From Flavipsychrobacter sp. (lineage in GTDB: Bacteria; Bacteroidota; Bacteroidia; Chitinophagales; Chitinophagaceae), in NCBI GenBank assembly GCA_025963465.1, contig JAOQAP010000202.1, positions 1 to 40,793 on the forward strand: 40,793 nt of DNA. Direction: 5' to 3'. Positions 9,178-12,755 of this stretch are shown piece by piece. The notes under the pieces are model-generated. The model did not search any database. It saw nothing but the letters and a program-made list of their open reading frames with translations, and was not told the origin of the DNA. The position numbers and the translations under genes were made by a program. How positions within the stretch are numbered: position 1 is the stretch's first letter; the number at the start of each line of letters is the position of its first letter.

Positions 9178-11373
9178 TCACAAAATAGTTTCGAAAATTC
9201 CGATCACTTTCAGCATTACTGATTCATCTTCAGTTATCTCGATATCAGTATATTCCGGATTGTCAGACAATGGTTTTAAGGTAATCGATTGATGGCTCCA
9301 TTGTTCGTTGTCAGCATTCTTTTTACTATGATACTCTTTTACAGTATAGCCAGAGCCATAATCGGGGTCTTGTATATTCGTATGCTCAACCAAAACAATT
9401 TTTCCGTTTCTGGAACCTCCGATATATTTCCTGAACAGGCAGATCGAACCATTCGGAATAACTTTATTCATCGATTCACCTTGAACCGTACAGGCAAATA
9501 ATTCTTTTGATGGTTTATATCTCGAAGGCAATTTTACCCAATCATAGTCACCAATGTTATCGCTCACAGTTTGTAGGTCACTAAAATTGCCAGCAGCAGC
9601 TTTTAGGTCATAAAGAGGAACTGAGTTTTGAAATGGGATTATGTCATCTTTAGGAACAAAGTCGACAACCTTTTTCGTTTTATAAGGTGCTATATGTTTT
9701 GCAAAATATTCCCGTAGATTTTTATCACAGACGTAAACATAAGTACCCTTAATCCCTCTCAACATTATTGTCTTGTAAATGTTGATGATAAAGTCTTTTA
9801 GCTTTGCAGGATCATTAATGGAATTCTTCCCATTAATGTCGAAATAATTTTCTTTCAGGATCACTATTTCATTTTTGGTTTTATCATAAGTTATTTCATT
9901 TCCAAAAACTACTCCTGTGTAATTTAGATCATATCCTTGTATAGTATGTATACATCCTACTTCATTGACGGAGTTTGCTGAATTAACCCAGTCAATGGAA
10001 ACACTGTTCCATTGTAGTTCAGTACCATCAATTTCAATATCAAATACTTTTTTATTTTCTTTTGATATCCATTTCCAGGAGTATCCAGCAATCAACCTCG
10101 ATAATCCATTTTCTTCATTTCTTAATTTAATCTCTCTTACAATATCCTTGATAGAATCAAAAAGTACAAATTCGTATTCTTTTGAGTTGAAGACTTTATC
10201 TGTAGCAATTGTACAGTTCAATAATCCATCTATATGTTGAACATAATTCTCACCACCTTTAACTCTGAATTGAGACCTTAAATATTCGATTTTGGTAGAG
10301 CTATTGGCTTTTAATTTATCGAAATCACTTTTGCTAACGTCAGATGGCTTTATTGATTGATTTTCGTCGTAGAATAAAATCAAATTATTAGATTGTTTGA
10401 TTACCCAATCTAGTTCGTTGCAATTGTTTTTATCAAAATCTAATTTTGCGCATGCTTTGTCGAAAGAGCTATAGTAGGCACCTAAATTAATTCTTTGCCT
10501 GAGTCGATGAGATTCATCAACAACTACAATGTCAAATTTATCGTTAGCAATTTCAGCAGGAGCAATGACCATATGTGAATTCAGTCCTTTCACATTTTTA
10601 AAGACTTTCTTTAGCGTATTTCTGAACGATGACATAGGAACTACCAATGCCATTTTGGGATTAGGATATTTATTTTTCAATTCTGCAATAAGCTGGATAA
10701 ACTCTAATTCGTTATCACCAAATTCTTTGAAATTGAAGTCCTCGTTATTTGAATTAAGGAGCTTAAATAAAAATACAGCCAAAATTGTTTTTCCGGTTCC
10801 TGCACCCCCTTCTACAACAATATTTTTAGAGTCATTTCTTAATAAGCTCTTTATGATTACCGAAAGGCCATGTTGTTGTTCTTTATTTAAGGTTTTGTAC
10901 GGAGAGTATTTGAACAGGTCAGAATTGTCAATATGAGAAATGGAATGTTTGGCAATTCCTTCACCTCTCAATTTATCCCAAATGGACACGAATATATCCC
11001 AGTATACTTCTTTCTTTTGGTAGTAATTATGGTTTGCTAAACCAATGTTTCCATTCATCAATTTAAATTCGCCATCGCCGGAAATATATTTGATCAGGTT
11101 AGATTCTATATCAAGAGTTGCTGATTTATTGAATTTTTCGCTTGTAATTAGATGAACTTCTGTTAGCTTGTTTTTGGCATTGCTTTTTAAATGGCTTGCC
11201 ATTCTTGCATAGGCATCTGTAGTCTCTCCTACATATGCTTCCTTTATTTTTCCGTCACTTAAAATATACACGATTGGCCAAAGGCTCTTTGCGTAGTGGA
11301 TATTCTGAAATTCATTAAATACGTTTTGATTAAAATCATACTTCCGAACCTCGAACACATTATTAACGGTCAT
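9178..11373 (-). CDS. GIY-YIG nuclease / DUF2075 helicase / LexA-like S24 peptidase fusion
   Basis: 731 aa. The N-terminus is a GIY-YIG domain (about 31-120): VYI 35-37, AYVG 46-49, Arg57, Glu90 and Asn residues at 107-116. The centre (about 155-570) is a DUF2075/COG3410 Schlafen-group helicase: Walker A GGAGTGKT 189-196, Walker B VVVDESH 283-289, LRSQFR 365-370, HTIQGYDLNYTGVVF 476-490 and TIMLRGIKGTYVYV 535-548. The C-terminus (about 580-731) is a LexA/UmuD-type S24 peptidase: candidate cleavage bond Ala594-Gly595 in KAAAGN, nucleophile Ser634 in GESMN, and Lys679 in YTVKEYH. The ATG overlaps the stop of the MazG-like gene by 4 nt. AT-richer than the flanking housekeeping genes. Inference: a nucleic-acid-processing effector whose CTD can be removed by self-cleavage, perhaps in a RecA-linked damage response. 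Defence against phage is plausible but unproven. Confidence 0.85.
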   Translation of the reverse strand: MTVNNVFEVRKYDFNQNVFNEFQNIHYAKSLWPIVYILSDGKIKEAYVGETTDAYARMASHLKSNAKNKLTEVHLITSEKFNKSATLDIESNLIKYISGDGEFKLMNGNIGLANHNYYQKKEVYWDIFVSIWDKLRGEGIAKHSISHIDNSDLFKYSPYKTLNKEQQHGLSVIIKSLLRNDSKNIVVEGGAGTGKTILAVFLFKLLNSNNEDFNFKEFGDNELEFIQLIAELKNKYPNPKMALVVPMSSFRNTLKKVFKNVKGLNSHMVIAPAEIANDKFDIVVVDESHRLRQRINLGAYYSSFDKACAKLDFDKNNCNELDWVIKQSNNLILFYDENQSIKPSDVSKSDFDKLKANSSTKIEYLRSQFRVKGGENYVQHIDGLLNCTIATDKVFNSKEYEFVLFDSIKDIVREIKLRNEENGLSRLIAGYSWKWISKENKKVFDIEIDGTELQWNSVSIDWVNSANSVNEVGCIHTIQGYDLNYTGVVFGNEITYDKTKNEIVILKENYFDINGKNSINDPAKLKDFIINIYKTIMLRGIKGTYVYVCDKNLREYFAKHIAPYKTKKVVDFVPKDDIIPFQNSVPLYDLKAAAGNFSDLQTVSDNIGDYDWVKLPSRYKPSKELFACTVQGESMNKVIPNGSICLFRKYIGGSRNGKIVLVEHTNIQDPDYGSGYTVKEYHSKKNADNEQWSHQSITLKPLSDNPEYTDIEITEDESVMLKVIGIFETIL

Positions 11374-11702
11374 AGTTCGGTGTATTTTTTTGCGTTACCT
11401 TTCGATTTATCAGCAGGATATTTAGCCTTGTTCTTTTCTATTTTTTCAAGAACGATTTCTTCAACATTGAATTGATATTTTTCTGCCAGTAAAAATGCAA
11501 ATGAAAATACGTCAGCCAACTCTTCTTTTACTTTATCCTTGTTAGCTTCTTCCGCATTTTTCCAAAGAAATAATTCAAGCAATTCGCCAGCCTCAATATT
11601 AATGGCTATCGCAAGATCTTTAGGGTTGTGAAATTGCCCCCACTCACGCTCATCTCTAAACTTCAGTAGTTCGGCAGTAATCTTATTAGAGTCCATACAC
11701 AT
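11370..11702 (-). CDS. MazG-like nucleotide pyrophosphohydrolase
   Basis: 110 aa, a single-domain all-alpha NTP pyrophosphohydrolase of the MazG/dCTPase-like superfamily. The metal-binding pattern ExxE-20-ExxD is present: Glu37-Ala-Gly-Glu40 (EAGELLE) and Glu61-Leu-Ala-Asp64 (EELADV). The family hydrolyses (d)NTPs to monophosphates and pyrophosphate; the substrate here is unknown. It is the first gene of a two-gene unit: its TGA overlaps the ATG of the nuclease-helicase gene (ATGA), so the two are translationally coupled and probably work together, for instance on nucleotide pools or damaged nucleotides. The start may be ATG 11702 or ATG 11696. Confidence 0.88.
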   Translation of the reverse strand: MCMDSNKITAELLKFRDEREWGQFHNPKDLAIAINIEAGELLELFLWKNAEEANKDKVKEELADVFSFAFLLAEKYQFNVEEIVLEKIEKNKAKYPADKSKGNAKKYTEL

Positions 11703-11840: not shown

Positions 11841-12755
11841 ATGAAAAGAGTAAATAATGCAGCAAATCATTTAGTAAACACAATAACGGAAGGACAAAAA
11901 TATTATATCGGATTTGGTATTAAACAATTGACAAAACTTGGTAGAGAAAATTCCGATATACAAGATATTATTAAAAAGAAAAAGAATTCGGCTATTATCA
12001 CGGGCAAAAAGGGAGTGCTCAAAGAGAATACACGGGGTAAATATATACGGAAAGAACCTCAGTCTAAAACTTCTGTAATGAAACATATTGAATATTATAG
12101 CAATCACTTTCATCGGGATATAAGCTATGATAGAGAATTCAACATTTGGGAAAAGGAATTATTACATAACTATAATCTTGCATTAACGATAGGCCTTACA
12201 CCCCAGGGTGAAACTATTCTTCATTTTCCGTTATTCACCATGCAGAGTAATGAAGCCCATTATCAGATGGCAGGAGCTGCAATGAACATCGCACTTCAGT
12301 TAGGCGAATACTTTCTATTCTATGACACGAATTTTGAGCCGATAATCCCTATAACCAAAGTAGTTGACAAAAGTATTTTACCATCAGGAACAAATTATGC
12401 ATCTGTTAAAGAGAAATTAGATGTGATTTATCAAAACATTATGGAAGGTAATTCCATAGATCAGGAAGGAAATAGTTATCGTTTTGCATTATTGAAGGAA
12501 GCGGCACCAGACGATGTAACTATGGGTAGAGGAGGATTTGATGACTACTTAATGTTTGAATACATTAAAAGTGATTTAATTGTATTAGAGAATCTAAAAA
12601 GTGGTAATGCTACTTATCTGTTTAAGCGATCAAAATTCGATAAGAACATGCTTTTAGATAAACAAACAGCTCGTAGTAATAAAGCGTTTAAGGAAAGAGT
12701 AATTCATGAAAATATGGTTGAATGGAATGAAAAAATGGGCAAACATTTTTCATGA
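11841..12755 (+). CDS. Unrecognised 304-aa protein of the accessory cassette
   Basis: 304 aa, with no signal peptide or membrane segment. The N-terminal 80 residues are strongly basic (KKKKNS, GKKGVLKENTRGKYIRK), suggesting nucleic-acid contact. The middle is a mixed alpha/beta region (LALTIGLTPQGETILHFPLF), and the C-terminus ends in a conserved-looking GNATYLFKRSKFDK block followed by a charged helix. I do not recognise a family. It is divergent from the MazG-like/helicase pair, shares its AT-rich composition, and lies with it between two repeat islands, so it may belong to the same functional cassette. A stable hairpin follows the stop codon. Confidence 0.75.
   Translation: MKRVNNAANHLVNTITEGQKYYIGFGIKQLTKLGRENSDIQDIIKKKKNSAIITGKKGVLKENTRGKYIRKEPQSKTSVMKHIEYYSNHFHRDISYDREFNIWEKELLHNYNLALTIGLTPQGETILHFPLFTMQSNEAHYQMAGAAMNIALQLGEYFLFYDTNFEPIIPITKVVDKSILPSGTNYASVKEKLDVIYQNIMEGNSIDQEGNSYRFALLKEAAPDDVTMGRGGFDDYLMFEYIKSDLIVLENLKSGNATYLFKRSKFDKNMLLDKQTARSNKAFKERVIHENMVEWNEKMGKHFS

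Follow-up and report, generated by a model that had tools for sequence, protein, structure and literature searches.

It has long been asked how cells keep restriction enzymes off their own DNA once it is damaged, and the question is raised by a single gene in a 40,793-nucleotide stretch of DNA from Flavipsychrobacter sp. (contig JAOQAP010000202.1; this whole stretch is hereafter the window). The gene joins a GIY-YIG nuclease domain, a Schlafen group 3 (SLFN-g3) helicase and a C-terminal Peptidase_S24 domain of the LexA type in one chain. It lies in an operon with a MazG-like gene, its family conserves a LexA-type cleavage site and Ser-Lys dyad, its tail is modelled with a LexA-type fold, and the same tail recurs on other motor proteins. 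We propose that the tail may act as a self-cleaving fuse by which the enzyme is controlled after DNA damage.

The open reading frame (ORF) was confirmed at exactly 9178–11373 on the minus strand, as are all features of the operon given below, with an ATG start and a product of 731 aa. An earlier note, made from the letters of the DNA, had named the three domains and their order, and all three score above their Pfam cut-offs in that order. The GIY-YIG match (PF01541, residues 34–95, positions 11089–11274; E 5e-5) narrowly passes its cut-off of 22.6 bits, with 24.0 and so a margin of 1.4 bits, and the same profile scores 21.2 bits, below the cut-off, in a 47%-identical relative (L005). Conservation was assessed in a family alignment of 47 members (three cut at the C-terminal end and one at the N-terminal end), which omitted the duplicate or partial loci L001–L004 and L009 and the distant L006–L008 and L010. 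Y36 is kept in 46/46 members and G49, R57, H61 and E90 in 47/47 each, with Y47 also conserved, so that the strand pair with conserved Tyr, Arg and Glu that marks the GIY-YIG superfamily is present in the sequence and nuclease activity is predicted. The helicase domain (PF09848, residues 183–550, positions 9724–10827), which we take to be the former DUF2075, matches at E 1.8e-63 over profile positions 2–354 of 354, and with Walker A (G192–T196) and Walker B (D286–E287) as near-invariant columns it places the protein in Schlafen group 3. A full-chain AlphaFold2 model built from 33 aligned members (pLDDT 82.2, pTM 0.71) has SLFN11, RecD2, RecD of RecBCD and Upf1 among its top Foldseek matches in the PDB, at E 1e-8 to 1e-7 yet with TM-scores below 0.4 (0.25–0.37 for SLFN11 and RecD2). 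No NCBIfam family was found over its cut-off in the fusion protein, Pfam returned neither PLD nor DUF3427, and PADLOC gave partial matches only, the best being Nhi over residues 145–415 in the helicase part (E 2.8e-9).

The Peptidase_S24 match (PF00717, residues 587–720, positions 9214–9615; E 3.2e-10, 40.2 bits against a cut-off of 23.3) falls in the last 150 residues, a region in which the earlier note had made such a match the test of its reading. Within it, A593, A594 and G595 around the predicted scissile bond Ala594-Gly595 (9589–9594) are each kept in 43 of the 44 members that have the S24 region, while the predicted catalytic residues Ser634 (9472–9474) and Lys679 (9337–9339) are kept in 44/44. 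On alignment with E. coli LexA and UmuD (NC_000913), AA-G falls on VAA-G of LexA and QC-G of UmuD, and the Ser and Lys share columns with those of both proteins. The Gly-to-Ser spacing is 34–39 residues, compared with 34 in LexA (39/42 rows measurable), so an Ala-Gly or Cys-Gly bond about 35 residues before the Ser can be read from the sequences. Modelled on its own (pLDDT 81), the tail points to an S24 fold with a Ser-Lys dyad of the LexA type: LexA, lambda CI or UmuD' fill the first 21 places among the PDB matches (E 1.5e-5 to 0.017), four of these rows being LexA with RecA filaments (entries 8gms and 8trg) and one CI with a RecA filament (8gmu), and signal peptidases first appear at rank 22. 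Counted across the different chassis, site, Ser and Lys are kept together in 41/42 modules. The exception to the cleavage site in the family, L046 (9732–10169), has lost it while its GIY, Walker and Ser/Lys residues are intact; a broken member outside the 44-member set (L076) reads TAG in place of AAG. L046 is a natural candidate for a non-cleavable variant.

Relatives of the module on viral contigs carry xAG in 44/44 cases (27 AAG, 17 SAG). Since Ser and Lys were both written into the search patterns, their presence carries no weight here, and only xAG is a free observation; in this comparison, 9 of the 30 submitted Bacteroidota S24 loci passed the threshold. Forty of the 44 lie in frames of 213–261 aa, unannotated, a size that we read as that of prophage repressors. 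Taken together, the tail is likely to cleave itself, and RecA is a probable trigger, held with less assurance and on the similarity of the modelled fold to RecA-bound forms. The description 'damage-responsive regulatory module' given in the earlier note is thus borne out as to sequence and fold, by the scissile site, the dyad and the LexA and CI matches, whereas the response to damage itself is a putative one.

The fusion was also thought to be self-contained, and here the earlier account has to be given up, as it had passed over the MazG-like ORF at 11370–11702, the first gene of the operon, whose end overlaps the start of the fusion gene by 4 bases. Its 110-aa product is a MazG-like nucleotide pyrophosphohydrolase by Pfam (PF12643, E 1.8e-19), and its nearest solved relatives are the pyrophosphatase 4qgp (E 1.3e-17) and dCTP pyrophosphatase 1 (6sqw, E 1e-16). 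One scan of genome contigs with patterns drawn from the window protein yielded 45 related loci, which lean to close relatives because of the origin of these patterns. Each of the 45, like the window, has a MazG-like ORF upstream in the same orientation, at a distance of -4 in 34 of these 46 loci, -1 in nine, 0 in two and 109 in one. The ExxE...ExxD site (E37, E40, E61, D64) is near-invariant over the 46 loci, so that by sequence the partner has the metal site of the MazG / dCTP pyrophosphatase family. All 45 relatives are labelled as Bacteroidota groups except L052, labelled as a metagenome-assembled genome (MAG) of Rhizobium, a label that is probably wrong, given that a search centred on its genome (G453) arrives at the loci already reached through the phylum of the window. 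That genome behaves as Bacteroidota and carries the S24 module three times, each on a different chassis.

The tail is not special to this fusion: no fewer than three further motor proteins bear it, and two of these are built like restriction enzymes. When 395 genomes from the phylum of the window were searched with a tail profile, up to nine candidates being scored in each, the module turned up in 18 genomes and in 14 of 171 genera. Ten of the 18 carry GIY-SLFN fusions, all with an upstream MazG gene and one of them broken (L076), five carry SauUSI-like proteins, two HsdR-like proteins and one a fragment at a contig end. The SauUSI-like carriers are 55–64% identical over their length to the protein of L035, which has PLD, ResIII/helicase and DUF3427 domains by Pfam in addition to the S24 tail, and they overlap an upstream Nudix gene; among solved structures, its product comes nearest to a putative CTP pyrophosphohydrolase (E 1.5e-39) and to MutT. 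The HsdR-S24 protein of L088 combines HSDR_N, SWI2_SNF2 and T1R_D3 domains and adjoins an HsdS gene; the HsdR-like carrier of L089 shares 76% identity with it along its length. In both loci (L088:54–9621 and L089:1958–7459) a gene for an SMC/AAA_21 (AbiEii-like) ATPase and an HNH gene stand just before HsdR, HsdS being seen in L088. A further SLFN-g3 and S24 form has a different front with an IELKQW-type motif, in L153 and in Halomonas (L140). We read this front as PD-(D/E)XK-like, and Pfam gave no nuclease match there. The cleavage site of L153 is AAC-G, a Cys-Gly pair as in UmuD; in the Halomonas locus the S24 tail is read in a different frame, with a MazG-like stretch after it.

S24 tails are not a general trait of large enzymes, a possibility rejected by a PF00717 survey of 61 genomes, in which the listed places lie in ORFs of at most 315 aa except for three (738, 733 and 1127 aa), all of them this module; the survey is no full census, having missed a known module copy in G071. 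In a plasmid collection the window's tail matched only the Halomonas sequence and a single regulator of the LexA family. The tree built from 34 modules and seven viral-contig relatives, for which L046 (a long branch) and LexA were set aside and the many similar GIY rows thinned to 22, separates the two sets at 100/100. Support for a single origin is 100/99 for the SauUSI-like modules (seven rows) and 100/97 for those on HsdR (two rows) and is weak for the GIY modules (78/72, 22 rows), while the two modules of the PD type do not form one group and nest with HsdR. This fits one module handed between chassis. We lean slightly towards a general statement, that a LexA-type autoprotease serves as a C-terminal fuse that has been carried to four or more kinds of restriction-type motor protein (GIY-SLFN, SLFN with the PD-(D/E)XK-like front, SauUSI-like and HsdR), through which a RecA filament could control restriction post-translationally, with no repressor or transcription involved, and that in the SLFN and SauUSI-like types it is accompanied by a dNTP pyrophosphohydrolase partner.

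The pairing with MazG is wider than the S24 tail, since a MazG-like gene also stands beside the tail-less L219, two forms with other fronts (L006, L007) and a form on a Lactiplantibacillus plasmid (L142); in five more other-front forms (L182–L186) the neighbouring MazG was assigned from ORF length only. A MazG-like stretch was also seen in an unannotated faecal contig of the phage collection (L145), and none was found in the available DNA of the tail-less L141, L143, L144, L187 and L188. Residues 1–576, searched in 296 genomes of the phylum with up to four candidates scored in each, gave nine GIY-SLFN relatives of at least 43% identity, own included: seven intact with the tail, as judged by ORF length and the regions read, one intact without it (G260, 563 aa, MazG kept) and one broken (G122). 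The system is patchy, matching in 8/60 genomes, and within the genus of the window in 4/35 at 73% identity or more, the own genome included in both counts; one of the four is split by an internal stop and one is cut by a contig end. Flanking genes differ at most loci, and SLFN-g3 and Nudix/SauUSI-like systems adjoin in L019, L035 and L153, as also in L007 on the Nudix stretch alone. On the Lactiplantibacillus plasmid a PLD/ResIII/DUF3427 gene is followed by a pyrophosphohydrolase gene and then by a GIY-SLFN gene, with no S24 domain. A phage-borne system was rejected: the viral-contig scan held no relative of the system, and the phage collection gave four records, none matching the tail, of which the best was the faecal contig mentioned above.

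From these observations we infer cleavage, its RecA trigger, the direction of the switch, a nucleotide substrate and a DNA target, which together would make a two-gene, restriction-type anti-DNA system with two devices of self-protection, a nucleotide-pool cleaner and a RecA-triggered off fuse. As a whole this is a tentative proposal, to which we give somewhat less than an even chance. The MazG-like protein would clear non-canonical or modified dNTPs, or lower dCTP, and would so keep host DNA free of whatever the nuclease targets; such a role is suggested by the partners being (d)CTP-type pyrophosphohydrolases of two unrelated kinds. The SLFN-g3 motor and the GIY-YIG nuclease at its front would cut foreign, perhaps base-modified DNA. 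On damage, a RecA filament on single-stranded DNA would bind the S24 module, Ser634 and Lys679 would cut Ala594-Gly595 in the same chain, and the nuclease-helicase would be left with a C-terminal ...AA as a ClpXP signal, as in LexA, where, in work attributed to Neher in 2003, the C-terminal ...AA is said to be part of a latent ClpXP signal. Destruction of the nuclease when host DNA is damaged would amount to restriction alleviation built into the enzyme. Modification-dependent (type IV) restriction would follow from the shared module and the convergence of partners: SauUSI cuts m5C and hm5C DNA (PMC3874153) and DUF3427 is predicted to bind modified DNA (PMC7159879).

We prefer the direction in which cleavage switches the nuclease off because HsdR is one of the carriers, because proteolysis of HsdR is an established form of alleviation, with HsdR a known ClpXP target (PMC4231737), and because L046 has lost the site. 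Switching on is nevertheless a serious rival, if a doubtful one. The tail would silence the nuclease-helicase, and RecA filaments formed on phage attack or prophage induction would free an active nuclease by self-cleavage, as with UmuD. Prophage repressors are cleaved upon RecA activation, and the module's nearest viral-contig relatives have their size. The natural tail-less forms (G260, L219 and the Bacillota forms) look complete, as if the tail were an add-on that could inhibit, and their existence means that removal of the tail could equally free an active enzyme. That L046 lacks the site in an otherwise intact gene would be odd if activity needed cleavage and fits the off direction better, albeit from one case; a nuclease freed in ordinary DNA damage would moreover be dangerous, and the carrier HsdR is known for a proteolytic switch-off.

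The tail-less forms are not the only observations that weigh against a RecA-triggered off fuse. AAG is common in the LexA class (27/44 of the viral-contig relatives), and the degron reading is thus non-specific. No conserved third gene accompanies the operon, a candidate rejected when the largest cluster among 216 neighbours (up to three a side) covered 3/44 loci; PADLOC and Pfam, run on 102 of the 216 without a control, gave some genes of defence type, namely methylases, dCTPase and capP with two or three members each. PMC4231737 argues against a general SOS mechanism, and PMC11109961 reports plasmid-induced EcoKI alleviation without SOS, kept in lexA1 E. coli. The Ser-to-Lys spacing is 45 residues, compared with 37 in E. 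coli LexA (39/42 rows measured), which would suit a non-proteolytic role, an improbable one in our estimate, in which the module dimerises or binds RecA like UmuD' and so brings the nuclease-helicase to damaged DNA, cleavage being a relic. UmuD' is among the fold matches and S24 domains do dimerise, but the joint retention of site, Ser and Lys in all but one of the modules is more than would be expected of a relic. Hardly less improbable is a repair operon for DNA and the nucleotide pool, in which MazG would clean up the dNTPs, the GIY-YIG helicase would remove wrong bases and S24 would adjust the process to damage. The partner does resemble a house-cleaning enzyme, and GIY-YIG and helicase domains also occur in repair, in UvrC and others. 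Against it stand the patchy occurrence of the system, neighbours that differ at most loci, the restriction-enzyme architecture of two other module carriers and the GIY form beside a SauUSI-like gene on a plasmid. Finally, as a further point against the fuse, sequence taken by itself ties the tail to LexA only weakly: phmmer with the full-length protein matched no LexA in the PDB, and the tail profile reached one there, that of T. maritima, at E 0.12. A weak S24 match by chance or annotation artefact, at the end of an ordinary DUF2075 protein, could account for this, but the notion is next to worthless: it is already contradicted by the Pfam E-value, by a LexA fold match at the lowest E-value given above and by the module on other proteins, and it was rejected on the invariant catalytic residues and LexA-type fold matches.

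The genome of the host speaks both ways on the off fuse. In its favour, RecA is encoded in the assembly (L223:1312–2330, contig C35), and a search for LexA DNA-binding domains, positive in 2 of 40 genomes, gave none here. On the opposing side, two TAG codons stand in frame close to the start of the RecA gene, ahead of an open 295-aa core, and leave RecA function in this strain unsure; they may stem from a fault of assembly, from decay or from recoding. In the Rfam tmRNA locus, no tmRNA tag was detected by ARAGORN. The host genome has two PF00717 places, the fusion and a 274-aa ORF that we read as a helix-turn-helix (HTH)-S24 regulator. Adjoining the operon, a divergent 304-aa ORF (11841–12755, plus strand) showed no Pfam family over cut-off and no NCBIfam or PADLOC match.

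For the question of self-protection, a built-in LexA-type cleavage site offers a directly testable route, in that one point mutation, at Ser634 or Gly595, should separate cleavage from the rest. If cleavage instead switched the nuclease on, the system would be a defence set off by DNA damage as such. The recurrence of (d)CTP-type pyrophosphohydrolases as partners points to what these nucleases may sense. Among the literature matches listed, which held no preprints and few subscription papers, the portions accessible gave no description of the fusion, of its MazG partner or of an S24 tail on a restriction enzyme.

Among the nearest known systems are the Bacillota helicases with GIY-YIG and DUF2075 (COG3410-type), in which the SLFN-g3 match reaches the GIY-YIG region. 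The Lactiplantibacillus form shares both Pfam domains and a nucleotide pyrophosphohydrolase gene just upstream. However, the Bacillota forms lack an S24-tail match, are 26–34% identical (plasmid hits starting within residues 9–44), and in two of the three loci opened (L141, L143) show no MazG-like stretch. Nhi / AbiO resembles the fusion through the Nhi profile in the helicase part, whereas the chain ends are unmatched, the S24 tail is extra and the profile is not covered over its full length. LexA, lambda CI and UmuD share the model fold, the scissile Ala-Gly or Cys-Gly and the Ser-Lys dyad, but here the module is C-terminal on a large motor nuclease and no DNA-binding repressor domain is present, and the family's longer Ser-to-Lys interval sets it apart from LexA. 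The type IV enzyme SauUSI (PLD, helicase and DUF3427) is likewise an ATP-dependent motor joined to a nuclease, and one carrier of the tail has this architecture. The fusion itself, built of GIY-YIG and SLFN-g3 rather than PLD, an SF2 helicase and DUF3427, falls outside the SauUSI family, and the SauUSI descriptions in the accessible part of PMC3874153 name no S24 domain. EcoKI alleviation differs in that the 2014 paper (PMC4231737) could not pin down the degron of HsdR and in that its plasmid-induced form is SOS-independent (PMC11109961). The likeness to type I HsdR is nonetheless twofold, for the module itself sits on the HsdR of two genomes, and alleviation, according to that 2014 paper, removes HsdR under DNA damage.

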